In this document: piece after piece, positions 70-53,147 of the stretch
How the letters are laid out: every line of letters begins with the position of its first letter
Numbering within the stretch: position 1 is the stretch's first letter
NCBI GenBank assembly: GCA_017466345.1
Contig: JAFTUI010000021.1
Coordinates: 1 to 53,504, forward strand
Source: Tidjanibacter sp.
GTDB taxonomy: Bacteria; Bacteroidota; Bacteroidia; Bacteroidales; Rikenellaceae
DNA length: 53,504 nucleotides
Direction: 5' to 3'
Notes under the pieces: generated by a model
Told to the model about the DNA's origin: nothing
The model's input: only the letters and a program-made list of their open reading frames with translations
Databases searched by the model: none
Position numbers and translations under genes: made by a program

Positions 70-313
70 AAGTTGAAAGTTGAAAATTGACAATTGACAA
101 TTGAAAATTGAAAATTTTCTTATAAGCCCTATATGCCCTATGAGCCTTAGGACTATTGACGTTAGACGTTAGACGTTAGACAATACAAACTTTAAGAGTG
201 CATATCGCTGAGGGATTTTTGTGCCAATAGAGCAAGCAAGTCCGCAGTTTGCTGGGCGCAAATGAGGAACTTGCGAGGCGAAGAGTGGTGCAAAAAGCAC
301 CAGCGAGATGCAG
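60..313 (+). repeat. Composite intergenic repeat, copy A (tandem arrays plus hairpin)
   Basis: Bases 62-117 are AGTTGAA/AATTGAC/AATTGAA 7-mers. Bases 120-155 are TATAAGCCC/TATATGCCC 9-mers ending in TTAGGACTATT. Bases 157-181 are GACGTTAG 8-mers. The palindrome follows. Its outer stem is 198-210 with 301-313 (11 of 13 paired), its middle stem is ATTTTTGTGCC near 214-224 with GGTGCAAAAA at 287-296, and its inner stem is GCAAG 236-240 with CTTGC 270-274 around the conserved centre 241-269. It separates murC from ftsQ inside the division cluster. Confidence 0.85.
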
Positions 314-6588: not shown

Positions 6589-6996
6589 GGAGGAGTTGAG
6601 AATTGAGAATTGAGAATTGATAATTGAGAATTGAGAATTGAAGCAAATGCGAGTAAGCGAGGGCAGAGGCTGCTTGCAGACTATGCCGAGCGGGAGCATT
6701 TTAGAGCAGCCGAAGGCTGGTCAATTGAAAATTGAAAATTAAGTTTTCTCCCATTACTCACATATCTCCCATATCTCCCATAACTCCCATAATAAGGCTT
6801 ATAAGTCCTATATGCCCTATAAGCCTTAGGACTATTGACGTTAGACCCTATACTCTGCGAGTGGGTTTTGTGGAGGGATTTTTGTGCCAAAAGAAGGAGC
6901 GACACCGGAGTTTGCTTGACGCAAATGAGGATGTCGCTCTCTGAATTTTGGTGCAAAAAGCGCCCACAAGGCACACTCGCCAGCGAGATTCGCTCG
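6589..6996 (+). repeat. Composite intergenic repeat, copy B, with one 85-bp repeat
   Basis: No gene is seen in this 408-base convergent gap. Bases 6594-6640 are AATTGAG 7-mers. Bases 6644-6722 hold a copy of the 85-bp repeat (motif GAGCAGCCGAAGGCTGG). Bases 6748-6793 are ATCTCCCAT-type 9-mers, then CCTATATGC 9-mers and one GACGTTAG unit. The palindrome has an outer stem 6857-6875 with 6962-6981, a middle stem near 6877-6887 with 6950-6959, and an inner stem GAGCGACA with TGTCGCTC around the centre at 6905-6931. Its right side runs into the stop codon of the AI-2E-type gene. Confidence 0.85.
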
Positions 6997-8094
6997 TTAA
7001 ACGTTAGACGTCAGCTTCCGTACCACCTTAAAATTATAGAAAAACTCCTTGGCAAGCACCCTGAGGACAGTGTAGGCGGGGATGGCAACGAGCATACCGC
7101 CCACGCCCGAGCAAGAGCCAGCAACAAGCGTCACGAGAAATATCTCCAAGGGGTGTGCATTGAGTTGGTGCGAGAAGACCTTGGGCGAGACGAAGTAGTT
7201 GTCTATCGCCTGAGCCGCCAAAATCGTAGCGGCAATAACCACCACAACATACGCAATGGTCATACCCGAAGTGGTAACAAACGTCAGTCCCGAGAGGGCA
7301 CTCAGTATGAAGCCAATCCAAGGACCAACATAGGGGATGATATTGAAGACACCCTCCACAACGCCCACAAAGATAGCGTCTTGGAACTCGAAGCCGAAGC
7401 AGACGAGAATGAGAGTCACAATGGTGCTCATAATGGTAATCTGGATGAGCACACCCAGGAAGTAGCGCGAGAGGTGCGAGGTGATGGACTCCACGGCACG
7501 TTTTACGTTATCCTCATATTTGGTCGGAGCCACAGCGAGCAGTATCCTCAGGAACAGCCCCTCCTCCTTCATAAACCAAAAGGCGATAAAGGAGATACTA
7601 ACCGCAGCGACCACAAAATTGCCCGCAACAGAGAAGATGGACGACACAAGCGAGGTTAGGCTACCACGCTCGGCAAAGTCTTTAATATAGCCCACCAACA
7701 TCTCGGTCAGCGAACTCTCGGAGATATTGAGTTTGAAGTACTTTTCGAGGAAGAGTCCGAGTTCGGTCATTGGCTCGCGCAGGGGTGCGAGGATGGATTG
7801 ATAGTCGAGGTGCGCCAGGTCGCTCAGTTTGCCCGATATGAGGGGGATGAAGAGCACAAAGAAGAGCAGTATCACCGCCCACACAGCCAGCACACCCACA
7901 AGAGCCGCCAGCCAGCGAGGAACGCTCCTACCCAACACCTTTACGCTCGCAATTTTGCCCACCAAAGGCTGGCACATAATAGCCAGCACGCCCGCAATGA
8001 AGACATAGAAGACAATGTCGCCAAAGAACCAAAAGACAGCCACCGTAGCCGTCAGAGCCACCGCGCCCAAGAGATATTTGTGAAAATTGTTCAT
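6997..8094 (-). CDS. AI-2E family transporter (PerM/YdiK-like membrane protein)
   Basis: The 365-residue polytopic inner-membrane protein has about seven to eight hydrophobic segments, including VALTATVAVFWFFGDIVFYVFIAGVLAIM near the start and the family-typical region around GVVEGVFNIIPYVGPWIGFILSAL. The family was named for autoinducer-2 export in E. coli (TqsA); other members are linked to Na+/H+ exchange, so the substrate is unknown. The last codons (LTSNV) are written by a GACGTTAG-type repeat unit, so the C-terminus appears to have been altered by the intergenic repeat. It is the last gene of the rsfS-ftsH-cdsA-psd run. Confidence 0.88.
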   Translation of the reverse strand: MNNFHKYLLGAVALTATVAVFWFFGDIVFYVFIAGVLAIMCQPLVGKIASVKVLGRSVPRWLAALVGVLAVWAVILLFFVLFIPLISGKLSDLAHLDYQSILAPLREPMTELGLFLEKYFKLNISESSLTEMLVGYIKDFAERGSLTSLVSSIFSVAGNFVVAAVSISFIAFWFMKEEGLFLRILLAVAPTKYEDNVKRAVESITSHLSRYFLGVLIQITIMSTIVTLILVCFGFEFQDAIFVGVVEGVFNIIPYVGPWIGFILSALSGLTFVTTSGMTIAYVVVVIAATILAAQAIDNYFVSPKVFSHQLNAHPLEIFLVTLVAGSCSGVGGMLVAIPAYTVLRVLAKEFFYNFKVVRKLTSNV

Positions 8095-9607: not shown

Positions 9608-9832
9608 AATTTTCAAGTTGAGAGTTGAAAGTTGAAAGTTATTTGCGTTCCCGCATACCGTTTTCTCTACATCCCGTAAGTGGGAATTTTGTATCACCAC
9701 TTCCAACCTGCGGGTGATTTATGTGAGGCGAGTTCAAGGCTTGGTTTTGATTTTGCGCCGCAGTTTACTCTGCGTAAATGAGGAAGCAAAATCAAAAGCG
9801 TAACGCAGAAATCGCCCACAGAAATCAGCCGC
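9608..9832 (+). repeat. Composite intergenic repeat, copy C (variant palindrome)
   Basis: A short run of AGTTGAAAGTTGAA units lies at 9614-9640. The palindrome has an outer stem 9710-9727 with 9815-9832 (pattern GCGGGTGATTT with AAATCAGCCGC, imperfect) that ends one base before the ftsH stop codon. A 12-bp inner stem (TTTTGATTTTGC with GCAAAATCAAAA, about 9745-9756 with 9786-9797) surrounds the conserved centre CCGCAGTTTAC, CTCTGC, GTAAATGAGGA. The usual GTGCC/GGTGC middle stem is not recognisable here. Confidence 0.8.
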
Positions 9833-11779
9833 CTATTTCTTTTTTGCACCAAAGATACGCTCCACATCCTCTGCAAAGACCACCTCGCGCTCCAAAAGCA
9901 GTTCGGCAAGTTCGGTAAGTCCCGCTTTGTTCTCCGCAAGGATGTCGGTAGCCATCTTAAACGCCTTATCAATCAGTCCCTTGGCTTCTTTATCAATCAG
10001 TTCCGAAGTCTGTTCGCTATAAGGTTTCGCAAACGAGTAGTCGCTCTGACCCGTAGAGTCGTAGTAGGAGCGGTTGCCCACCTTGTCGCTCATACCATAG
10101 TAGCTGACCATTGCGTAGGACATCTTCGTGGCCCTCTCTAAGTCGTTGAGTGCACCTGTTGAGATCTCGCCAAAGGTGAGTTGCTCCGAAGCCCTACCCG
10201 CCAAGAGCGCTGCCATTTCGTGCATCATCTGCTCGGTGGTGGTAAGTTGTCGCTCCTCGGGCAGATACCAAGCCGCACCGAGAGCCCTACCACGAGGTAT
10301 GATTGTAACCTTCACAAGTGGGTTAGCGTGCTCCAAGAGCCAGCTAACGGTTGCGTGACCCGCCTCGTGGAAGGCAATTTTGCGCTTCTCGGCGGGGGTG
10401 ATGATTTTGCTCTTCTTCTCCAAACCGCCAATAATCCTATCCACAGCCGCAAGGAAGTCCTCCTTGTCGATAGCCTTCTTGTCGCCACGAGCAGCGATGA
10501 GTGCCGCCTCGTTACATACGTTGGCAATGTCGGCACCCGAAAAACCGGGCGTCTGCTTTGCCAAGAACTCCACATTCACATCATCGGCAAGTTTGAGTTT
10601 TCGCATATGCACACCGAAGATAGCCTCACGCTCTTTGAGTTCTGGCAAACCTACATCAATCTGCCTATCGAACCTACCTGCACGAAGCAGAGCCTTATCC
10701 AAGATGTCTACACGGTTGGTAGCTGCCAGCACAATAACGCCCGAATTGGTACCAAAGCCGTCCATCTCAGTAAGGAGTTGGTTGAGAGTATTCTCCCTCT
10801 CGTCATTACCCGAGAAACCTGCGTTCTTACCCCTTGCACGACCTATGGCGTCAATCTCATCAATGAAGACAATACAGGGGGCTTTCTCCTTAGCCTGAGC
10901 AAACAAGTCCCTCACGCGCGAAGCACCCACGCCCACAAACATCTCCACAAAGTCGCTACCGCTAATGGAGAAAAAGGGCACGTTAGCCTCGCCTGCCACA
11001 GCCTTAGCCAACAGCGTTTTACCCGTTCCCGGAGGACCTACAAGCAGTGCGCCCTTAGGAATTTTACCACCGAGTTCGCGGTATTTTTCGGGTTTGCGGA
11101 GGAAATCGACAATCTCCATAATCTCGACCTTTGCCTCCTCCAAACCTGCAACATCCTTGAAGGTTATCTTGTTGGCGTTGTCCTTGTCGTAGATCTGCGC
11201 ACGCGACTTACCCACGTTCATCACACCATTCTGCCCTGCCGCACCGCGCCCCATCGAGCGGAACATCATAAACATCAGCACCACAAAGAAAATCATAGGC
11301 AGCCAGCCCGCAAGTTCGCGCCAGAAGTTGGTAGCATACTCCCACGCAGGCACGGGCACCTCCACTCCGTAACGCTCGGCAATTTTTTCCAAGTCGGTAC
11401 GGAAAATCTCGGGATTACCAATGTTGTAGGTAAATTGGTATTTGGTGTCGGGCAGCGACTTGTAGGTCGGCATCTTGCGATACTCCTCCACTGCCTCTGT
11501 TTTGAGGTAGATGCGTGCAGTCTTGTCGTTTACAACCTCTATTTTCTGCACATCGCCCTCCACAATCATATTCTGCAAAGCGTTCCACTCAATCTTGCGA
11601 GGAGTGCCACTGCCATCAAAGAGGGGCATCAGGAAGAGTGCCGCAAGCATCAGCACCCAAAAGCCATAGAAGAACGAAAGAGGTCCGCGCCTACGCCTTG
11701 GGGGCATAGGATTGCGAGGTGGCATATTGTTTTTGGGGTTGGGATTACCACCACCCATATTGTTTGTATTGTTATCCAT
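9833..11779 (-). CDS. ftsH: ATP-dependent zinc metalloprotease FtsH
   Basis: This membrane-anchored AAA+ protease does quality control of membrane and regulatory proteins. The 648 residues run: Asn/Pro-rich N-terminus, first membrane helix ([22 protein letters not shown]), periplasmic domain, second helix ([15 protein letters not shown]), AAA domain with Walker A GPPGTGKT and Walker [13 protein letters not shown], then the zinc site HEAGH and the protease domain. All key residues are present. It follows rsfS across a 334-base gap holding repeat copy D, so read-through from rsfS would cross that palindrome. Confidence 0.97.
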
Positions 11780-11849: not shown

Positions 11850-12113
11850 TGAAAATGGAAAATTGAAAATTATTAAAGTCCTTAATCTCCTATATGCCCT
11901 ATATGCCTTATAAGCCCTATATGCCCTATGAGCCTTAGGACTCTTGACGTTAGACGTTAGACGTTAGACAAAAAAACGCAGATAACGGAGGGATTTTTGT
12001 ACCAAACAAACGAGCAAGTCCGCAGTTTGCTTGGCGCAAATGAGGAACTTGCGATATGCAGTTTGGTGCAAAAAGCACCCACAAGGCACACTCGCCCACA
12101 GAAATCAGCCGCA
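11850..12113 (+). repeat. Composite intergenic repeat, copy D (chimeric right flank)
   Basis: A short AAAATTGAAAATT stretch is followed by CCTATATGC/CCTATAAGC 9-mers at about 11890-11934 and GACGTTAG 8-mers at 11946-11968. The palindrome has middle stem GGATTTTTGTACC (11991-12003) with GGTGCAAAAA (12065-12074) and inner stem GCAAGT (12014-12019) with ACTTGC (12047-12052). No left partner is seen for the right arm. The right flank joins a copy of B's right arm (CCCACAAGGCACACTCGCC) to a copy of C's (CCCACAGAAATCAGCCGC), ending at the rsfS stop. Confidence 0.8.
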
Positions 12114-12467
12114 CTACTCTTCTGACTCGTAACGCGTAGCAGGCGCATCAGCCCACAACTGCTCCAAACGATAGTAATCTCTCAGGGGAGTGAGGAAGAT
12201 GTGAACCATAACATCCACATAGTCCACCGCAATCCACGCCGCGTTGGTCTTACCCTCCACACGGCGAGGTTTCTCGCCAAGTTTCTCCTCCAAAGCCTCC
12301 ACAATGCCATCTGCAATGGCATCTACCTGGGTGGTGGAGTCGGCATTGCACACCACAAAGGCATCACAAATCGTACCTTCCAATGCGCTCAAATCGAGCG
12401 ACACGATATTGTGCCCCTTTTTGTCCTGAATAGCCTCAACTATATTGTCAATAAGTTTCTGTGTCAT
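12114..12467 (-). CDS. rsfS: Ribosomal silencing factor RsfS
   Basis: This 117-residue protein of the Iojap/RsfS family binds ribosomal protein uL14 and blocks subunit joining when nutrients are scarce. Family features are visible: LDLSALEGTICDAFVVCNADSTTQV, then the conserved AAWIAVDYVDVMVHIF block. The order rsfS-ftsH-cdsA is common in Bacteroidales. It starts 63 bases downstream of the oxyR stop. Its stop codon abuts repeat copy D. Confidence 0.93.
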   Translation of the reverse strand: MTQKLIDNIVEAIQDKKGHNIVSLDLSALEGTICDAFVVCNADSTTQVDAIADGIVEALEEKLGEKPRRVEGKTNAAWIAVDYVDVMVHIFLTPLRDYYRLEQLWADAPATRYESEE

Positions 12468-13474: not shown

Positions 13475-13940
13475 AATTGAAAGTTGAAAATTGAGGGTTG
13501 ATAATAAGGGCATTAAGGTCGTTAAAGACGTTAAGGGCATTAAGGTCGTTAAAGACGTTAAGGGCATTAAGGTCGTTAAAGACGTTAAGGGCATTAAGGT
13601 CGTTAAAGTCCTTAAACTCCTTAAACTCCTATATGCCTTATAAGCCCTATAAGCCCTATAAGCCCTATAAGCCTTAGACAAAAACAGACCTCTCCCCCGC
13701 TTCGCGGACCCTCCCCTAACTTAGGGGAGGGAATTCCCAAAACAGCAAAAAAACGCATAGAACGAGATAGATGCAAGGCATACGAGAAAGCGGCTCCGCA
13801 GTTTGCCTTCCAAAGCGGTAAAAACACATATAAGCGAGCGTATTTTAGGCGCACAAGAAAACGACCTCCGAGCATAGTTACCTATGTAAGGAGGTCGTTT
13901 ATCGCAGTGCAACGCCAAAGACGCCGCTTATATGCGTTTT

Positions 13941-13942
<2 letters not shown>
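13475..13942 (+). repeat. Composite intergenic repeat, copy E, with a 27-bp higher-order tandem array
   Basis: The 498-base gap between oxyR and groEL holds only repeats. AATTGAA-type 7-mers are followed at about 13504-13611 by four copies of a 27-bp unit built from three 9-mers (TTAAGGGCA, TTAAGGTCG, TTAAAGACG). CCTATAAGC 9-mers run to 13677. A 47-base module with the hairpin CTCCCCTAACTTAGGGGAG lies at 13684-13731 and a half-palindrome at 13753-13818. The full palindrome has outer stem 13822-13838 with 13922-13940 and inner stem AAACGACCTCC (13858-13868) with GGAGGTCGTTT (13890-13900). Its centre is the alternative GAGCATAG/CTATGT type. Confidence 0.85.
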
Positions 13943-15578
<1,636 letters not shown>

Positions 15579-19636: not shown

Positions 19637-19982
19637 GAATTGAGAATTGAGAATTGAGAGTTGAGAGTTGATTTTTGTAAGGACATTAAGGGCGTTAAGG
19701 ACTTTAAGGTCTTTAAACTCCCATAAGCCCTATAAGCCCTATAAGCCTTATAATCCTTAGGACTATTGACATCACCCCCCTTAAAGAACAAATAACGAGA
19801 TGGATGCAAGGCAGGGGCGTAACACCCCTTTTGTGCTGGTGGTTCTATGCAAGTAAAAATCGCCAAGAGTGGAGATATTTTTGTGCCAAAAGAAGGAGCG
19901 GGCTCCGAAGTTTACTTAATCGTAAATGAGGAGTCCGCTCTCTGAATTTTGGTGCAAAAATAGCCCTCTATTGGCGATTTTT
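19637..19982 (+). repeat. Composite intergenic repeat, copy F (outer stem reaches into mscL)
   Basis: This is a convergent gap with no gene. AATTGAG 7-mers lie at 19637-19670, TTAAGGACA-type 9-mers at 19680-19716, then CCTATAAGC 9-mers ending TTAGGACTATTGAC. A sub-hairpin AGGGGCGTAACACCCC sits near 19813-19828. The palindrome has outer stem 19856-19872 with 19965-19982, middle stem ATTTTTGTGCC (19877-19887) with GGTGCAAAAAT (19951-19961), and inner stem GAGCGGGCTCC (19896-19906) with GGAGTCCGCTC (19930-19940), with one G-U. The right outer arm covers the last mscL codons and stop. Confidence 0.85.
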
Positions 19983-20405
19983 TAAGAGGTCGCGGATCTC
20001 GGTGAGGAGAACCTCCTCTTTGGTAGGCTCTGGTTCGGGCTCGGGAGCAGGTGCAGGTGCGGGAGCAGCGGCAGCCTCCTCAGCCTCTTTCTTCTTGGTG
20101 AGTTCCGAAAGGCGGTTGATGCCTTTAATGAGGAAGAAGATGGAGAGTGCTACGATGAGGAAATCGAATACCTGCTGCAAAAATGCACCATATTTCCACA
20201 TCACAGGCTCTACCTCAGTACCAAGGTTGAGTGCAAGGTCGGTAAAATTAACTTTACCGATGAGCATACCCAGAGGGGGCATAATGACGTCATTAACAAG
20301 CGAGGTAACGATTTTACCAAATGCGCCACCGATGATAACACCGACTGCCATATCTACGACATTACCTTTGAGCGCAAATTTCTTAAATTCGGACAAAAAC
20401 GACAT
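19968..20405 (-). CDS. mscL: Large-conductance mechanosensitive channel MscL
   Basis: This pentameric inner-membrane channel releases solutes on osmotic downshock. The 145 residues start [33 protein letters not shown], the amphipathic helix and pore-lining first membrane helix. The second helix follows ([18 protein letters not shown]), then a Pro/Ala/Glu linker ([17 protein letters not shown]) and a C-terminal helix. The final codons (KNRQ and stop) form half of the outer stem of palindrome F. Confidence 0.96.
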
Positions 20406-22267: not shown

Positions 22268-22635
22268 GAAAATCGCGAGTAAGCGAGAGTTGAGTTTTTC
22301 TTGTAAAGACATTAAGGTCCTTAAACTCCTATAAGCCCTATAAGCCCTATAAGCCTTATATGTCCTATATGCCCTATATGCCTTATATGCCTTAGGACTA
22401 TTGACGTTAGACGTTAGACGTTAGACAAAAACGATTTTTGCGGAGGAAATTTTGTGCCAAACAAGAAGGCGGGGGCGTAACGCCCCTTTTGTGCTGGGAT
22501 TCCTTCCGACCGAAAAATGCATATAGGTTAGCGTATTTTAGACGCACAAGAAAATCCCCTCCGCAGTTTACACGAGGTAAATGAGGAGGGGATTTATCGC
22601 AGTGCAACGCCAAAGACGCCGCCTATTTGGAATTT
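22268..22635 (+). repeat. Composite intergenic repeat, copy G (type-2 palindrome nested in a type-1 left half)
   Basis: No gene is seen in this convergent gap. 9-mers (TTAAGGTCC, CCTATAAGC, CCTATATGC) run to 22390 and GACGTTAG 8-mers to 22426. The left arm AAAAACGATTTTTGCGG (22428-22444) and ATTTTGTGCC are followed by the sub-hairpin GGGGCGTAACGCCCC instead of the usual centre. A second palindrome then starts at about 22513, with inner stem AAATCCCCTCC (22552-22562) and GGAGGGGATTT (22585-22595) around CCGCAGTTTAC, ACGA, GGTAAATGAGGA. It ends at the gap stop codon. Confidence 0.8.
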
Positions 22636-23655
<1,020 letters not shown>

Positions 23656-33949: not shown

Positions 33950-34423
33950 GGAGTTGAGAGTTTATTGTAAGGACATTAAAGACATTAAGGACATTAAGGA
34001 CATTAAACTCCTATAAGCCCTATAAGCCCTATAAGCCCTATAAGCCTTATAAGCCTTAGGACTATTGACGTTAGACGTTAGACGTTAGACAAAAACAACA
34101 GACCTCTCCCGCCTTCGGCACCCTCCCCTAACTTAGGGGAGGGTTACCAAGCAGTAAAAGTGCATATAAGCGAGTGCATTTTAGGCGGAGGCGTAACGCC
34201 TCTTTTGTGCAGGGATTTCTACCGACACAAAAAACGATTTTCGCGGAGGGATTTTTGTGCCAAACAAGACGTAAAAGTCACCAACAAGATGCGCTTTGGA
34301 AAAACGATTTTCGCGGAGGAAATTTTGTGCCAAACAAGAAGGCGAGTCCGCAGTTTGCTTAACGCAAATGAGGAACTCGCCTATCGCTGTGCGGTGCAAA
34401 ATTTACCCGCGAAAATCGTTTTT
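33950..34423 (+). repeat. Composite intergenic repeat, copy I (best-preserved palindrome)
   Basis: A 518-base gap with no gene. TTAAGGACA 9-mers lie at 33970-34008, CCTATAAGC 9-mers at about 34010-34057 and GACGTTAG 8-mers at 34066-34090. The CTCCCCTAACTTAGGGGAG module is at 34098-34143, then a type-2 left half with sub-hairpin GGAGGCGTAACGCCTC. A second, incomplete left arm is at 34229-34252. The full palindrome has a perfect 17-bp outer stem (34300-34316 with 34407-34423), middle stem AAATTTTGTGCC (34320-34331) with GGTGCAAAATTT (34393-34404), and inner stem GGCGAGT (34341-34347) with ACTCGCC (34375-34381). Confidence 0.9.
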
Positions 34424-34736
34424 AGAGGTTTTTCTCGATTTTGGCACGAAGATCCCCCTCCGAGCAAGCACCTACCTGCTTGTCTACAAGCTCGCCATTC
34501 TTAACGAATACGATGGTGGGGATGTTGCGAACCGAGAATTTCACGGGAACATCGTTTGCCTCGTCTACGTTGCATTTGCCAATGTTGGCTTTGCCCTCGA
34601 ACTCCTCGGCGAGTTTCTCTACGATGGGACCAATCATACGGCAAGGACCGCACCACTCTGCCCAAAAATCAATAACCAAAAGTTTGCTGTCGGCTGCCAA
34701 CTCAGCGTAGTTGGCGTCATTAATTACAAGTGCCAT
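34422..34736 (-). CDS. trxA: Thioredoxin
   Basis: The 104-residue cytoplasmic disulfide reductase has the active site WCGPC (Cys29, Cys32), the cis-proline segment RNIPTIVFVKNG and standard thioredoxin length. It lies 51 bases downstream of dnaE on the same strand. Its stop codon overlaps the last bases of palindrome I, so the transcript ends in that structure. Confidence 0.97.
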   Translation of the reverse strand: MALVINDANYAELAADSKLLVIDFWAEWCGPCRMIGPIVEKLAEEFEGKANIGKCNVDEANDVPVKFSVRNIPTIVFVKNGELVDKQVGACSEGDLRAKIEKNL

Positions 34737-38469: not shown

Positions 38470-38945
38470 AAAAATTGAGAATTGAAAATTGAGAATTGAA
38501 AATTGAGAATTGAAAGTTAATGATTTTTTTCATCAACTCTCCTGAAAGTTGCCCACGAGATAGCCGAGGGGAGAGGTTATATCGTGGAGGAAATTTTGTG
38601 CCAAAAGAAGGAGCGACACCGCAGTTTGCTTGACGCAAATGAGGAAGCCGACTATCTCGCAGTGCGGTGCAAAAGTTATCCACGAGATAGCCGAGTAGAG
38701 AGGTTATATCGTGGAGGAAATTTTGTGCCAAAAGAAGGAGCGACACCGCAGTTTACTTTGGCGTAAATGAGGAGGCCGACTATCTCGCAGTGCGGTGCAA
38801 AAGTTATCCACGAGATAGCCGAGTAGAGAGGTTATATCGTGGAGAAAATTTTGTGCCAAAAGAAGGAGCGACACCGCAGTTTGCTTGACGCAAATGAGGA
38901 TGTCGCTCTCTGAATTTTGGTGCAAAAGTTACCCACGAGATAACC
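38470..38945 (+). repeat. Repeat copy J: three tandem palindrome units (period 125-128)
   Basis: The 499-base gap between dnaE and aroE holds AATTGAG 7-mers (38472-38516) and then a tandem array. The marker CCACGAGA recurs at 38553, 38680, 38808 and 38933, giving three units of 127, 128 and 125 bases. Each unit has GGTTATATCGTGGAG, ATTTTGTGCC, the centre CCGCAGTTTGC or CCGCAGTTTAC with GTAAATGAGGA or GCAAATGAGGA, then GGTGCAAAAG. Only the third keeps a paired inner stem (GAGCGACA with TGTCGCTC); in the first two the right half is replaced by GCCGACTATCTCGC. The last arm runs into aroE. Confidence 0.9.
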
Positions 38946-39675
38946 TCGACCATATTCTGTACGAAGCTTCTGCCTGTAATACAAACATCCGCTGCCCATT
39001 GCAAATGCGGGTGCCCTGCTTTTGTCCCCGGCGGAGAAACTCGCTCGTTGCGGGGTTGTAGATAAGGTCGAAGAGCAGGTGGTCGGGGGTTAGATGTTCG
39101 TATGGTAGCGGTGGACACTCCCCTACTGCGGGGGCCATACCGAGAGGTGTGGCGTTGATTATGAGCCTATGGGCGGCGATGATTGTGGGGGTCAGCTCCT
39201 CGTATGAGAGGTCGCCCCTATCGCTATGCGATACCACCAGAAAATCAATATCTCTGTCTGCGAGAACACGTTGCACAGCCTTCGATGCGCCACCCGTGCC
39301 GAGCACCAGAGCTTTCACTTCCTCGCCACCGAGCACCTCGCCAAGAGCCATCGCAAAGCCTTCGTAGTCGGTGTTGTAGCCCACAAGCGAGCCATCTTCC
39401 TCCACCTTCACACAATTTACTGCTCCGATGCGTTGTGCCTCGCTGGAGAGTCGTGCAAGATGGGGCAAGATTTGCTCTTTGTAGGGGTGTGTGACATTGA
39501 AACCCCTGAGGTTGGGGTTTTGGGCAATCAGTGTGGGCAGATGCTCTATGCTCTCCAACTCCATTTTGCGGTATTCGCGCATATCGAGTTCGCCTGCCGA
39601 GGCGAATTTACGGGTAAAGTAGTCCGCCGATAGCGAGTGAGCCAAGGGCTTGCCTATGATACCATAGAGTTCCAT
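38929..39675 (-). CDS. aroE: Shikimate 5-dehydrogenase
   Basis: It reduces 3-dehydroshikimate with NADPH in aromatic amino-acid synthesis. The 248 residues show the substrate motif IGKPLAHSLSADYF, the catalytic lysine/aspartate regions NVTHPYKEQIL and GAVNCVK plus GYNTDYEGF, and the NADP loop VLGTGGASKAV. The final residues RLSRG and the stop codon are written by the outer arm of palindrome J, so the native C-terminus may have been replaced. It starts 15 bases after the VTT gene stop. Confidence 0.95.
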   Translation of the reverse strand: MELYGIIGKPLAHSLSADYFTRKFASAGELDMREYRKMELESIEHLPTLIAQNPNLRGFNVTHPYKEQILPHLARLSSEAQRIGAVNCVKVEEDGSLVGYNTDYEGFAMALGEVLGGEEVKALVLGTGGASKAVQRVLADRDIDFLVVSHSDRGDLSYEELTPTIIAAHRLIINATPLGMAPAVGECPPLPYEHLTPDHLLFDLIYNPATSEFLRRGQKQGTRICNGQRMFVLQAEASYRIWSRLSRG

Positions 39676-40425: not shown

Positions 40426-40507
40426 TGCCCAGGACAGGAATCGAACCTGCACGCCTTGCGGCACACGCACCTGAAACGTGCGCGTCTACCTATTCCGCCA
40501 CCTGGGC
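40426..40507 (-). tRNA. tRNA-Leu (anticodon CAG)
   Basis: The 82-base sequence folds into a class II cloverleaf. The acceptor stem is GCCCAGG with CCTGGGC, and the D arm is GCG/CGC with AATAGGTAGA. The anticodon stem is CACGT with GCGTG and the loop is TTCAGGT (anticodon CAG). A long variable arm TGCCGCAAGGCG and T arm GCAGG/CCTGT with TTCGATT complete it. The discriminator is A and CCA is not encoded. The long variable arm and A73 fit leucine. Confidence 0.95.
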
Positions 40508-46485: not shown

Positions 46486-46798
46486 TCATAAAGACCTTAA
46501 TCTCCTATAAGCCTTATAAGCCCTATAAGCCCTATAAGCCTTAGGACTATTGACGTTAGACGTTAGACGTTAGACGTTAGACAAAAAACTATTTTCGCAG
46601 AGCGATTTATAGGCGGAGGCGTAACGCCTCTTCTGTGAGGGTGGTGCTCTCGCAACTATCCGAAGCGGTAAATAATCTATATTGCAGAGGGATTTTTGTG
46701 CCAAACGAGAGAGCGAGTCCGCAGTTTGCTCTTCGCAAATGAGGAACTCGCTCTTCGAAGCGCGGTGCAAAAAGCACCTGCAAGATAGATTATTTTTA
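46486..46798 (+). repeat. Composite intergenic repeat, copy K
   Basis: CCTATAAGC 9-mers lie at about 46503-46541 and GACGTTAG 8-mers at 46553-46582. Then comes a sub-hairpin GGAGGCGTAACGCCTC. The palindrome has outer stem AATAATCTATATTGCAG (46671-46687) with CTGCAAGATAGATTATT (46778-46794), middle stem GATTTTTGTGCC with GGTGCAAAAAGC, and inner stem GAGCGAGT (46711-46718) with ACTCGCTC (46746-46753). It ends at the gdhA stop codon. Confidence 0.88.
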
Positions 46799-48139
46799 GA
46801 TGACGCCCTGCTCCAACATAGCCTGAGCCACCTTCATAAAGCCTGCAATGTTAGCACCCTTAACGTAGTCAACGGTACCGTCAGCCTTTTGGCCGAAGCG
46901 TACGCACTGCTCGTGGATGCTCTGCATAATGAAGTGGAGTTTATCGTCAACCTCCTGTGCCGACCAGCTGAGGTGAGCAGCGTTCTGAGTCATCTCCAAG
47001 CCCGAGGTAGCAACACCACCTGCGTTCACAGCCTTACCGGGAGCGAAGAGGATACCAGCGTTCTGGAAGGTAGCGATAGCCTCGGGGGTGCAACCCATAT
47101 TCGAAACCTCGCAGCAGCACCAAGTACCGTTTGCCAAGAGTTCTTTTGCATCGTCACCGTTGAGCTCGTTCTGGAATGCGCAAGGAAGAGCGATGTCGCA
47201 CTTCACGCTCCAAGCCTTCTTGCCGGGGGTAAACTTAGCAGCCTCGGGGAATTTGGTTGCCATATCCTCAACTTTGTTGCGGTTCGAAGCACGCATAACG
47301 AGCATATAGTCAATCATCTCTTTGGTGATACCTGCGGGAATCTCGCAAACACCATCGGGACCCGAGATAGCGATAACCTTACCGCCAAGTTCAGTTGCCT
47401 TAGTAGCAGCACCCCAAGCTACGTTACCGAAGCCCGAGAGAGCGATAGTCTTACCTTTGATATCTTTGCCTGCTTTGGCGAGAACGTGCTCTGTGAAGTA
47501 GAGAGCACCGAAACCGGTAGCCTCGGGACGGAGAATCGAGCCACCCCAGTTCTGACCTTTACCGGTCAGTACGCCTACGTTGTACTCGCGAGCGAGTTTG
47601 GTGTACATACCGAAGAGGTAGCCAATCTCACGACCGCCAACACCTACGTCACCTGCGGGAACGTCAGTGTCGCCGCCGATGTTGTGCCAGAGTTCGAGCA
47701 TAAACGCCTGGCAGAAGCGCATAATCTCAGCGTCCGATTTGCCTACGGGGTCGAAGTCCGAGCCACCTTTACCGCCACCCATAGGAAGGGTAGTGAGGGC
47801 GTTTTTGAAAGTCTGCTCAAAGCCGAGGAATTTCAGCATCGAGGGGTTAACGGCTTTGTGGAAACGAAGACCGCCTTTGTAGGGACCGATGGCTGCATTG
47901 AACTGTACGCGGTAGCCGAGGTTGGTCTGTACCTCACCCTTGTCGTCAACCCAAGTCACGCGGAAGGTGAAGATACGGTCGGGCTCAACCATACGCTCAA
48001 CGATTTTTGCTTTCTCAAATTCGGGGTGCTGGTTGTAAACCTCCTCGATAGATTCGAGAACCTCTTTAACTGCCTGCAAATACTCGCTTTCGCCGGGGTG
48101 TTTACGCTCCAACTCAGCCATCAAATTCTGAACATTCAT
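46796..48139 (-). CDS. gdhA: Glutamate dehydrogenase (NADP-type, hexameric)
   Basis: It interconverts 2-oxoglutarate plus ammonia and glutamate. The 447 residues have the catalytic motif PMGGGKGGSDFDPVGKSD with the active lysine, the substrate segment YKGGLRFH, the Rossmann loop ALSGFGNVAWGA and the C-terminal KGANIAGFMKVAQAML. This matches the small hexameric family usually NADP-dependent; cofactor preference was not tested. The promoter TATTTTTG at 48225-48218 is divergent from that of gcvT. Confidence 0.95.
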   Translation of the reverse strand: MNVQNLMAELERKHPGESEYLQAVKEVLESIEEVYNQHPEFEKAKIVERMVEPDRIFTFRVTWVDDKGEVQTNLGYRVQFNAAIGPYKGGLRFHKAVNPSMLKFLGFEQTFKNALTTLPMGGGKGGSDFDPVGKSDAEIMRFCQAFMLELWHNIGGDTDVPAGDVGVGGREIGYLFGMYTKLAREYNVGVLTGKGQNWGGSILRPEATGFGALYFTEHVLAKAGKDIKGKTIALSGFGNVAWGAATKATELGGKVIAISGPDGVCEIPAGITKEMIDYMLVMRASNRNKVEDMATKFPEAAKFTPGKKAWSVKCDIALPCAFQNELNGDDAKELLANGTWCCCEVSNMGCTPEAIATFQNAGILFAPGKAVNAGGVATSGLEMTQNAAHLSWSAQEVDDKLHFIMQSIHEQCVRFGQKADGTVDYVKGANIAGFMKVAQAMLEQGVI

Positions 48140-49569: not shown

Positions 49570-49870
49570 TCCCCAAGGGTTATGGGGGTTATGGGAGTTA
49601 TGGGAGTAATGGGAGTAATGGGAGTAATGGGAGTAATGGGAGTAATGGGAAAACCACTGCGGTAAAAACGCAAATAAGCGAGCGTATTTTAGGCGGCGTC
49701 AGAATGACGCTTTTGTGCTGGTGGTTCTCACCAAAGCAAAGTGATGAAAAACGATTTTCGCGGAGGAAATTTTGTACCAAACAAGAAGGCGAGTCCGCAG
49801 TTTGCTTAGCGCAAATGAGGAACTCGCCTATCGCAGTGCGGTGCAAAATTTACCCGCTAAAATCGTTTTT
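49570..49870 (+). repeat. Composite intergenic repeat, copy L (twin of copy I)
   Basis: GGGAGTAAT/GGGAGTTAT 9-mers run from about 49585 to 49650. Next comes a type-2 left half (AAACGCAAATAAGCGAGCGT) with sub-hairpin GCGTCAGAATGACGC. The palindrome's outer stem is 49747-49763 with 49854-49870 (16 of 17 paired), with the same middle and inner stems as copy I. The unit of about 124 bases differs from copy I at only four positions by my reading, yet ends at the secA stop codon instead of trxA's. Confidence 0.9.
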
Positions 49871-52800
49871 ACGCGCCGTGGCAGTGCTTGTACTTCTTGC
49901 CTGACCCGCAAGGACAAGGATCATTGGGGCGCACCTTCTTCTCAACGTGTACGGGCATAGGCTTGCTCTTCTCGCCCTGACCGGCCTGAGCAGCGGCAGC
50001 CATACGCGAAGCCTGCAACTTGTTGACATCAACCTTCTGCTGTGCCTGCTGACGGCGCGAGAGGCGGCTCTCTGCCTGCTCCTTAGTGGGGATAAAGCCC
50101 TTCATAAGTATGGAGATAACCTCGGCATTTACCTTGTCTATCATCGCCTCGAAGAGGTTGTACGACTCGCCTTTGTATATAAGGAGGGGATCTTTCTGCT
50201 CGTAGGTGGCATTCTGAACGCTCTGTTTCAGATCGTCCATCTCCCTGAGGTGCTCTCGCCAATTGTCGTCAATGGTTGTGAGCATTGCGAGTTTGGTAAA
50301 CATCTTATAGATCTCTGCACCCTCGGTTTCCACGCATTTTTTGAGGTTTACGAGCACATTATAGACGAGGGTGCCATTGGTTACGGGCACATACATATTC
50401 TCGGCTTGTGCATTGCTCTCAACCACATTCTTAATGACGGGCATAGCGGTCTGAGCCACCATCTGAGCCCTACGGGCGTAGGCGGCGCGAATATCCTCAG
50501 TAATGAGGTCGGCGAACTCGGTCGTGGAGGCTTTCTGATAGGTCGCCTCATCAAACGAGGGCTGGATAGCCACCTGACGTATGAGTTCCAGCGACATCTC
50601 CTCGTAGGGTGCACCCTTGATGTTTGCCGCAAAGGTGTCGGCAAAGGAGAGAATCATATTATTAAGGTCAATATCCACACCCTCGCCATAGAGTGCGTGG
50701 CGGCGCATAGTGTAGATGGCTGTACGCTGTTTGTTCATCACATCATCGTACTCCAAGAGTCGCTTACGGATACCGAAGTTGTTCTCCTCAACCTTCTTCT
50801 GCGCCCTCTCGATAGCCTTAGTCATCATACCTGCCTGGATAACCTCGCCCTCTTCAAGTCCCATCTTATCCATCATTGCAGCGATGCGGTCGCTACCGAA
50901 CAGACGCATCAGGTCGTCCTCCAACGACACAAAGAACTGCGAAGAACCGGGATCGCCCTGACGTCCCGAACGACCTCTGAGCTGACGGTCCACACGGCGG
51001 CTCTCGTGACGCTCGGTACCGATGATAGCAAGACCACCGGCTGCCTTAACCTCTTGCGAGAGTTTAATATCCGTACCACGACCTGCCATATTGGTTGCGA
51101 TGGTAACCTGTCCTGCCCTACCTGCCTCGGCAACAACCTGAGCCTCCTGGGCGTGCTGCTTGGCATTGAGGACATTGTGGGGGATGTGGCGAATCTTCAA
51201 GATGCGGCTCAACAGCTCCGACACCTCCACCGAGGTAGTACCCACCAATACGGGGCGTCCCTCGCCAACAAGCCTTACAATCTCCTCCACAACGGCATTA
51301 TATTTCTCCCTCTTAGTCTTATATACGAGGTCTTCCATATCTTGACGTGCTATGGGGCGGTTGGTGGGGATAACCACAACATCGAGTTTATAGATGCTCC
51401 AAAACTCGCTTGCCTCCGTCTCGGCGGTACCGGTCATACCGGCGAGTTTGTGGTACATACGGAAGTAGTTCTGCAAGGTGATGGTCGCAAAGGTCTGCGT
51501 TGCGGCCTCTACCTTAACTCTCTCCTTAGCCTCGATAGCCTGGTGCAGACCGTCCGAATAGCGGCGACCCTCCATAATACGTCCCGTCTGCTCGTCCACA
51601 ATCTTCACTTTGCCGTCCATCAGCACATACTCCACATCCTTCTCGAACATACTGTATGCTTTCAGGAGCTGATTTACGGTATGTACCCTCTCGCTCTTGG
51701 TGGCGTAGTCGGCAAGTATCTCGTCTTTCTTGGCGGCTTTTTCCTCGGGTGTCATATCGCTCTTTTCGAGCGCGGCAACCTCCGAGCCGATGTCGGGCAG
51801 CACGAAGAACTTATCATCGCCCACCGAGCGAGCCAACATCTCGTGTCCCTTGTCGGTAAGTTCTATGGAGTTGAGTTTCTCATCAATAACAAAGAAGAGT
51901 TCATCGGTAATCTCTGGCATACGCTCGTTCTTGTTTGCCATATAGATTGCCTCGGTCTTCTGCAACAGCACCTTCATACCCTGCTCCGAGAGGAACTTGA
52001 TGAGGTTTTTGTTCTTGGGCAAGCCCTTATGTGAGCGTAGCAACAAGATACCACCCTCCTCGGTCTTACCCTCGGCAATGAGTTTGCGAGCCCTAACAAG
52101 GCAGTCGGCAGCAAAGTTGCGTTGCATAGTGTAGAGTCGCTCCACAATATCGCGATACTCATCGAAGAGTTGGTCATCGCCCTTAGGTACAGGACCCGAA
52201 ATAATCAAAGGGGTACGGGCATCGTCAATGAGCACCGAGTCCACCTCATCGACAATGGCAAAGTGGTGTTTCTTCTGCACCAACTCCTTAGCCTGAATAG
52301 ACATATTATCCCTCAGGTAGTCGAAGCCGAACTCGTTATTCGTACCGAAAGTGATGTTAGCCTCGTATGCCCTCCTACGCTCTGCCGAGTTGGGGCGGTA
52401 GTTGTCGATACACTCCACCGACAAGCCGTGGAATTGGTACATAGGACCCATCCACTCGCAGTCACGTTTTGCCAGGTAGTCATTCACGGTCACAACGTGC
52501 ACGCCCTTGCCGGCAAGCGCATTGAGGAATACGGGCAATGTAGCCACAAGGGTTTTACCCTCACCCGTAGCCATCTCGGCAATTTTACCCTTATGGAGCA
52601 CCACGCCACCGAAGAGCTGAACATCGTAGTGGACCATATCCCACTTAATGTCGTTGCCGCCTGCCTGCCAAGTGGTCTGCCATACAGCCTTATCGCCCTC
52701 GATGCTCACAAAGTCCCTCACCGAAGCCAAGTCCCTATCGAACTGCGAGGCGGTAACCTCCACAGTCTCATTCTCGGCAAACCTGCGGGCAGTAGACTTC

Positions 52801-53147
52801 ATAATGGCAAAAGCCTCGGGCAAAATCTCATCGAGTCTCTGCTCAATCTTCTCGTCAATCTTCTCGGTGAGCTGCTCTATCTCCTTCGAGATGGCACTCT
52901 TCTTATCGATGGGAATATCGCCCTCAATCTCCACTTTGAGCGTTGCGATACGCTCCTCCTCGGGGCGTATAAACTCTGCTATACCCTCCCTCAGAGCCGC
53001 CGAGCGTCCCCTTAGTTCGTCATTCGACAGAGCATCTATCGTGGGATAGAGCGCGAGTATCTTATCCACATAAGGCTGGATCTCCTTCTTGTCCTTATCA
53101 CTCTTCGTTCCAAAAAAGAGCTTCAAAACCGACTGTACTACATTCAT
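49869..53147 (-). CDS. secA: Protein translocase ATPase SecA
   Basis: The motor of the Sec preprotein pathway has 1092 residues, with the usual Bacteroidota-size insertions. Motifs include Walker [15 protein letters not shown], the DEAD-like [28 protein letters not shown], and [20 protein letters not shown]. The C-terminal SEC-C zinc finger ([19 protein letters not shown]) binds SecB or ribosomes. It is convergent with gcvT, and its stop codon lies inside the outer arm of palindrome L. The leader carries a 46-base block also present before groEL. Confidence 0.98.

Follow-up and report, generated by a model that had tools for sequence, protein, structure and literature searches.

Palindromic, probably mobile elements behind gene ends in a Tidjanibacter genome, with an apical hairpin related to an Escherichia coli repeat

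The element behind the thioredoxin gene and its copies in the window

The window (the whole 53,504-nt stretch of DNA that was analysed) carries at 34300..34423 a nested palindrome that abuts the stop codon of a thioredoxin gene. Its parts, from the outside inwards, and the adjoining gene are as follows.

34300..34423, better-folding strand +: full element, the main finding (model match 34304–34419, 70.9 bits, E = 2e-13)
34304..34419, no strand assigned: outer stem ACGATTTTCGCG / CGCGAAAATCGT, with an A-run on its left side and a T-run on its right, resembling a terminator on either strand
34322..34402, + strand: middle stem ATTTTGTGCC (34322–34331) / GGTGCAAAAT (34393–34402), with two G·T pairs on +
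34341..34381, + strand: inner arms GGCGAGT (34341–34347) / ACTCGCC (34375–34381)
34348..34374, + strand: apical core CCGCAGTTTGC-TTAAC-GCAAATGAGGA, with a G·T closing pair, a GCA/GA internal loop and a bulged A
34422..34736, − strand: thioredoxin gene, with a TAA stop codon that runs into the outer arm

A partial element (outer arm plus the left arm of the middle stem) immediately precedes this full copy at 34234–34299, and half elements beginning at the apex are found elsewhere, behind groEL in G000 and behind secA in G312. Short tandem runs of CTATAAGCC and GACGTTAGAC units occupy window positions 34000–34100 and also the left flanks of several other copies.

Elements of this family measure about 110–150 bp. 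On the core strand their plan leads from an outer stem, which differs from copy to copy along with its own complement, through a conserved loop (CAAGGC/AACGC, replaced in one subfamily by a paired GTGCC/GGTGC) and variable inner arms to the apex, with the consensus CC-[GCA]-G-TTTAC-loop-GTAAA-T-[GA]-GG and a bulged A. The pair that closes the apex is G·T in 48 of 50 sequences and A·T in the other two.

A first-pass annotation had listed eleven loci in the window as carrying one and the same three-tier fold around a fixed centre. All eleven hold the element, and a covariance model resolves them into 13 copies, since 38553–38945 is a tandem array of three; the core lies on the + strand in all 13. 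The model was built from 42 of 62 listed sequences, leaving out near-duplicates and copies with fewer than six of ten pairs. In ten of the 13 copies the stop codon of a minus-strand gene lies −17 to +22 nt from the model end. The remaining copies are:

198..313, + strand: element copy, with no called end of a minus-strand gene adjacent
6861..6976, + strand: element copy, 3′ of an AI-2E-type transporter gene (6997–8094, −)
9714..9828, + strand: element copy of the CAAGGC/AACGC form, 3′ of an ftsH-like gene (9833–11779, −)
11976..12091, + strand: element copy, 3′ of rsfS (12114–12467, −)
13824..13937, + strand: divergent copy with a different apex, GAGCATAG...CTATGTAA, 3′ of groEL (13941–15563, −); weakest model match, E = 0.005
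19859..19977, + strand: element copy, 3′ of mscL (19968–20405, −)
22517..22632, + strand: element copy, 3′ of a GAPDH gene (22636–23646, −)
38575..38692, + strand: tandem copy 1 of 3, inner arms unpaired (chimera)
38702..38820, + strand: tandem copy 2 of 3, inner arms unpaired (chimera)
38830..38945, + strand: tandem copy 3 of 3, where an aroE-like gene (38929–39675, −) has its 3′ end
46675..46790, + strand: element copy, 3′ of a glutamate dehydrogenase-family gene (46796–48139, −)
49751..49866, + strand: element copy, 3′ of secA (49869–53147, −)

The products of the genes beside ten window copies are thioredoxin, GroEL, SecA, FtsH, RsfS, MscL, GAPDH, a glutamate dehydrogenase-family protein, an AroE-like protein and a transporter. 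The supposedly fixed centre varies: the copy at 13822–13940 has another apical stem, and those at 6905 and 19904 read CCGGAG and CCGAAG, respectively. The middle stem ATTTTGTGCC/GGTGCAAAAT is a trait of one subfamily that is missing at 9710, 13822 and 22513; in the wider family CAAGGC/AACGC stands in its place. That the changing inner arms each come with their own complement is correct in general, the exceptions being two members of the threefold 38553 array, in which the left half of one subfamily is joined to the right half of another. At gathering score, Rfam matches the window only at a tRNA gene (40426–40507, minus strand).

Covariation and the strand that folds

A set of 50 sequences drawn from several phyla gives a covariation score of 0.524, compared with 0.156 (s.d. 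0.013) after shuffling, with none of 500 shuffles as high, and with 0.09–0.14 for slid partners. Pairing cells make up 90% of this set versus 69.6% in the shuffles. The same 50 sequences show no excess over shuffles either in pairs of which both partners have changed (11 of 16, shuffled mean 10.0) or in further pair types (36 versus 34.9), and the outermost four pairs form in just 29–35 of them. In a gapless test of 85 sequences the four innermost positions are Watson–Crick in 84–89%, versus 34–56% after shuffling. The arms of copies in related genomes do pair, so that the refuting tests named in the first-pass annotation leave its fold standing; among the 58 copies from this genome, inspection by eye identified truly different arms in two copies of the window array (L014) and in one copy each at the loci L024 and L042.

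Non-Watson–Crick cells on the core strand are G·T rather than A·C by 38 to 12, as counted on the 108 of 147 unique arm pairs above the pairing cut, with the 39 below it left out. With the apical G·T pair set aside, the 50-sequence set gives 21 to 14, a weaker strand asymmetry. By RNA energies the + strand is the more stable in ten of the 11 window copies tested, in line with the strand-specific wobble noted from the sequence. Because G·T outnumbers A·C on the core strand, the preserved fold is most likely that of this strand, the antisense one with respect to the neighbouring gene. Taken together, the compensatory arms, the conserved internal-loop bases and the wobbles favouring one strand argue that a single-stranded fold is under selection, and to this extent the original proposal of a selected folded RNA or single-stranded DNA stands. 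What it overlooked is that the element is probably mobile; the fold therefore need not belong to an RNA gene.

Distribution, mobility and placement at gene ends

The exact core occurs 39 times in this genome and the reversed pattern not once. The covariance model finds at least 139 copies (E ≤ 0.001), with 150 of the 572 candidates scored. Eleven of 19 genomes of the genus carry 14–139 copies, while none were found in the other eight, six of which are 98–99% complete; the element is therefore no fixed RNA gene. In a GroEL tree that includes ten of the 11 genus carriers, the carriers fall into two separate groups. A scan across genomes gave at least 116 loci, mostly in Bacteroidota and some in Proteobacteria, and 31 genomes picked for having a match carry from at least one to at least 119 copies each (E ≤ 0.001). 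Among 296 genomes of the phylum a match was present in 30, of which 27 belong to one family outside the class (f18), possibly Chlorobiaceae-like. In G355, a member of the Bacteroidaceae, 46 copies were found, 20 of which were fetched and are near-identical in the core region. Three loci (L054, L076 and L059) hold two same-strand copies about 125–1300 bp apart, with slightly different apices in L054 and L059.

The clearest signs of movement come from f18. Here, 57 distinct copies were examined and the 36 without both ends recognised were left out; 17 of the 21 copies with both terminal repeats (GGGCACCTCT...AGAGGTGCCC) have an exact 4-bp target duplication, compared with 2.7 expected by re-pairing the flanks. 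At the 3′ end of murI an element, which starts with GGGCACCTCTATTTATT and finishes in its complement, lies behind the stop codon in two of 30 f18 genomes and the site is empty in 28, including G169, which is 96% identical in protein (30 of 61 matches compared). Such repeats together with duplications came to light in f18 alone, not in the genus of the window, and the G355 copies have possible terminal repeats but no target duplication by eye. In the genus itself, presence at the groEL and secA ends varies among species. Among 20 of 30 groEL matches inspected by eye, G000 alone has an element immediately after the stop codon; in the carriers G309, G313, G308, G312, G300, G305 and G304 the gene is followed by a plain hairpin with a T-run (by eye). 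At the secA end an element is present in seven of the ten genus carriers for which a secA match was obtained, the subtypes differing (by eye; 21 of 29 matches). Between G308 and G313, which are about 95% identical, movement is slow: nine of the 11 aligned pairs of elements are conserved in place, whereas the secA copy and one other have given way to an element of a different subtype following that gene. Given the target duplications in f18 and the occupied and empty sites, we consider that this is probably a palindromic, MITE-like, non-autonomous mobile element.

In G308 and G313 the left flanks of several elements (L286, L284, L287, L297 and L295) contain plain terminator hairpins that resemble one another in sequence (GGTGTGTCTAA...TTAGACACACC) and are perhaps a second gene-end repeat family.

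Most copies in this gut bacterium sit right behind stop codons, nearly all in one orientation, and many resemble the transcription stop signal of the gene. In three contigs of this genome the gene on the 3′ side runs towards the copy in 37 of 41 cases, and that on the 5′ side runs one way in 22, the other way in 18 and was not called in one. Among 208 copies fetched, 56 had no usable ORF; in 86 of the other 152 the stop codon lies 44–51 nt from the core. The 58 copies from this genome have T4 on the right in 24 cases, A4 on the left in 30 and both in 21, with A4 on the right in eight and T4 on the left in three as controls. A terminator function of the outer stem may be inferred from such runs, but not a general one, since both are present in only 21 of the 58. 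The left arm is complementary to the coding end of its own host gene in 44 of 118 copies (those of the 152 that passed a distance and redundancy filter), compared with 21% for the ends of other genes.

As for orientation, 121 of the 139 copies match the majority of their contig, single-copy contigs counting trivially. On the three contigs, gene (transcription-unit) ends with a copy number 27 of 87 on the favoured strand and two of 61 on the other (p = 1.3e-5), the favoured side being taken from the elements themselves and two tandem window copies and one partial copy on contig C25 being left out. A weak third-position GC skew, together with the side on which most genes lie, hints that the favoured genes belong to the leading strand.

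Relatives in Proteobacteria and competing explanations

An f18 copy matches an E. coli record over 59 bp at 88% identity (E = 2e-11), and in a plasmid collection it matches 17 records, several of them chromosome-sized, from Escherichia, Klebsiella, Salmonella, Yersinia, Aeromonas and Comamonas. A model built without the five proteobacterial loci finds four of them, one only at E = 0.003. The repeat is present in 5375 of 5426 E. coli genomes, at a median of five places, with six in MG1655, one of them at the 3′ end of glrK. Sequence comparison thus indicates that the apex is homologous from Bacteroidota to E. coli. The statement that no described family matches is not supported: from its copy number (six in MG1655) and its size (about 150 bp) the E. 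coli repeat is probably RSA/BEE95, the annotation that we examined having no repeat feature. The name occurs in the title of a 1996 publication by Bachellier and Hofnung, cited in PMC3751351. The E. coli repeat shares the homologous apex (CCGGAGCGTAC-N-GTACGTGAGGA), the same internal loops and the nested palindrome of about 150 bp, and differs in its few copies per genome, its other outer arms and in not always lying 3′ of an approaching gene. The distance from stop codon to core is 63 nt for glrK and 46 nt for a Comamonas gene; among eleven proteobacterial copies listed, it is 43–55 nt in five and another value in three, and three have none. Moreover, one E. coli copy lies between divergent genes, another follows glnA on the other side, and at the Klebsiella aerogenes copy the gene on that side points away, all of which break the placement rule.

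Other palindromic repeats show partial likeness. ERIC (IRU, RU-1) is likewise a palindromic MITE, of 127 bp and with orientation-dependent effects on mRNA (PMC2229807, PMC10969869). YPAL (RU-2) is described as a palindromic mobile element that targets sites near dyad symmetry with duplications of 3–26 bp, unlike the 4 bp of the f18 elements, and the published RU-2 sequence has no comparable apex by eye (PMC2229807, PMC2759123). GTAG and CGTC REPs are 20–40 bp long with terminal tags, the CGTC type being found predominantly downstream of genes in Proteobacteria, Chlorobi and Bacteroidetes and the GTAG type being tied to RAYTs, which many carriers of the present element lack (PMC3733652). A literature search by element sequence gave nothing relevant by title. 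ERIC primers did not match at the copies in the five proteobacterial loci, their sole matches lying elsewhere with six mismatches.

The explanation that we consider the most probable, although well short of certain, is that these are small non-autonomous palindromic mobile elements, MITE-like, with an apex that folds better on one strand. An enzyme (a candidate transposase or host factor) would read the single-stranded apex and move the hairpin element; insertion beside a stop codon would be tolerated because the outer A-run, stem and T-run give the host gene a terminator and a 3′-end hairpin. The outer arms might be kept complementary via exchange between copies or hairpin copying, as the match of the left arm to the coding end of the host gene suggests, and copies oriented oppositely with respect to replication would be lost or would never arise. 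A bolder version, which we put forward only tentatively and hold to be rather unlikely as it stands, makes the conserved apex the recognition site of a hitherto undescribed single-strand-specific factor common to Bacteroidota, f18 and Proteobacteria, which would move or maintain gene-end hairpins in a replication-strand-dependent manner, their outer arms being renewed by flank copying. If such a factor does read the single strand, this would be a distinct class of structural mobile element and not a set of unrelated MITEs.

A search for the enzyme bears on whether these could be REP/RAYT-type elements mobilised by a Y1 HUH transposase, with which a strand-specific, intergenic single-strand hairpin with unpaired bases would agree. 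PF01797 was found in none of the 11 genus carriers; among 29 other carrier genomes a Y1 gene is present in 18 and was not found in 11, including G355 with its many near-identical copies. No element copy (E ≤ 0.1) lies near any of 30 Y1 loci, out of 48 matches. These results rule out RAYT transposases recognisable by this profile as a general mobiliser, and we give this origin hardly any credence. Reverse transcriptase was likewise rejected as the mobiliser, since among the 11 genus carriers PF00078 was found in just three. At 136 loci no family of genes is over-represented next to copies, the largest cluster being ABC ATPases at 14 loci; no autonomous partner was found among these families, and neither Y1 transposases nor reverse transcriptases track the carriers. 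Only marginally better is the case for attC-like sites recombined by an integrase acting on single-stranded DNA. The attC sites of cassettes resemble the element in strand, stop-codon position and strand bias: here, too, the better-folding strand is antisense to the gene, directly behind its stop codon and biased along the contig. Yet the host genes in the window are housekeeping genes, and no attC-type core boxes were recognised by eye.

More weight, although still a minor share, goes to explanations in which the host makes or uses the hairpin. Terminators or mRNA-stabilising hairpins made by the host at 3′ ends, kept by selection and spread by recombination without transposition, would account for the position right behind stop codons and for the A-run and T-run of many copies. 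G000 has no plain terminator where its copy stands behind groEL, and the exchange at secA took place between copies with common outer arms. Such hairpins, however, need no apex with unpaired bases conserved across phyla, and the terminal repeats with target duplications in f18, the lack of detected copies in eight of the 19 genus genomes and the E. coli copy between divergent genes all weigh against them, so that we regard this reading as improbable, if the most serious rival. A structured RNA, whether a regulatory or processing element read from the + strand or part of a 3′ UTR, appears less probable again. It would fit the covariation, the one-strand G·T bias and the conserved internal loops, but the better-folding strand is antisense to the abutting gene in most copies, and with the 5′-side gene pointing either way this strand need not be transcribed. 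Furthermore, the distribution is patchy, and at gathering scores no Rfam family was found at the elements of the window, of 18 related loci or of six proteobacterial loci.

On the favoured reading as mobile elements, the element appears, by sequence, to belong to an old family of small hairpin-shaped mobile elements. Bacterial MITE families are usually limited to one genus or family; the apical hairpin is recognisable from Bacteroidota, via a second class of the phylum, to nearly all E. coli genomes. A little-studied E. coli repeat would thereby gain a wide family, and K-12 would make testable both the mobile hairpin as a portable gene-end signal and the question of which protein reads it. It should be noted for annotators that the contigs of G355 begin or end at or inside copies; the element therefore breaks assemblies. 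Left of most G355 copies with a long enough left flank (L309–L328) there is a second palindrome, GAGGCTGACTAAAAAG...CAGCCTC, the outermost arm of which varies with the flanking sequence.
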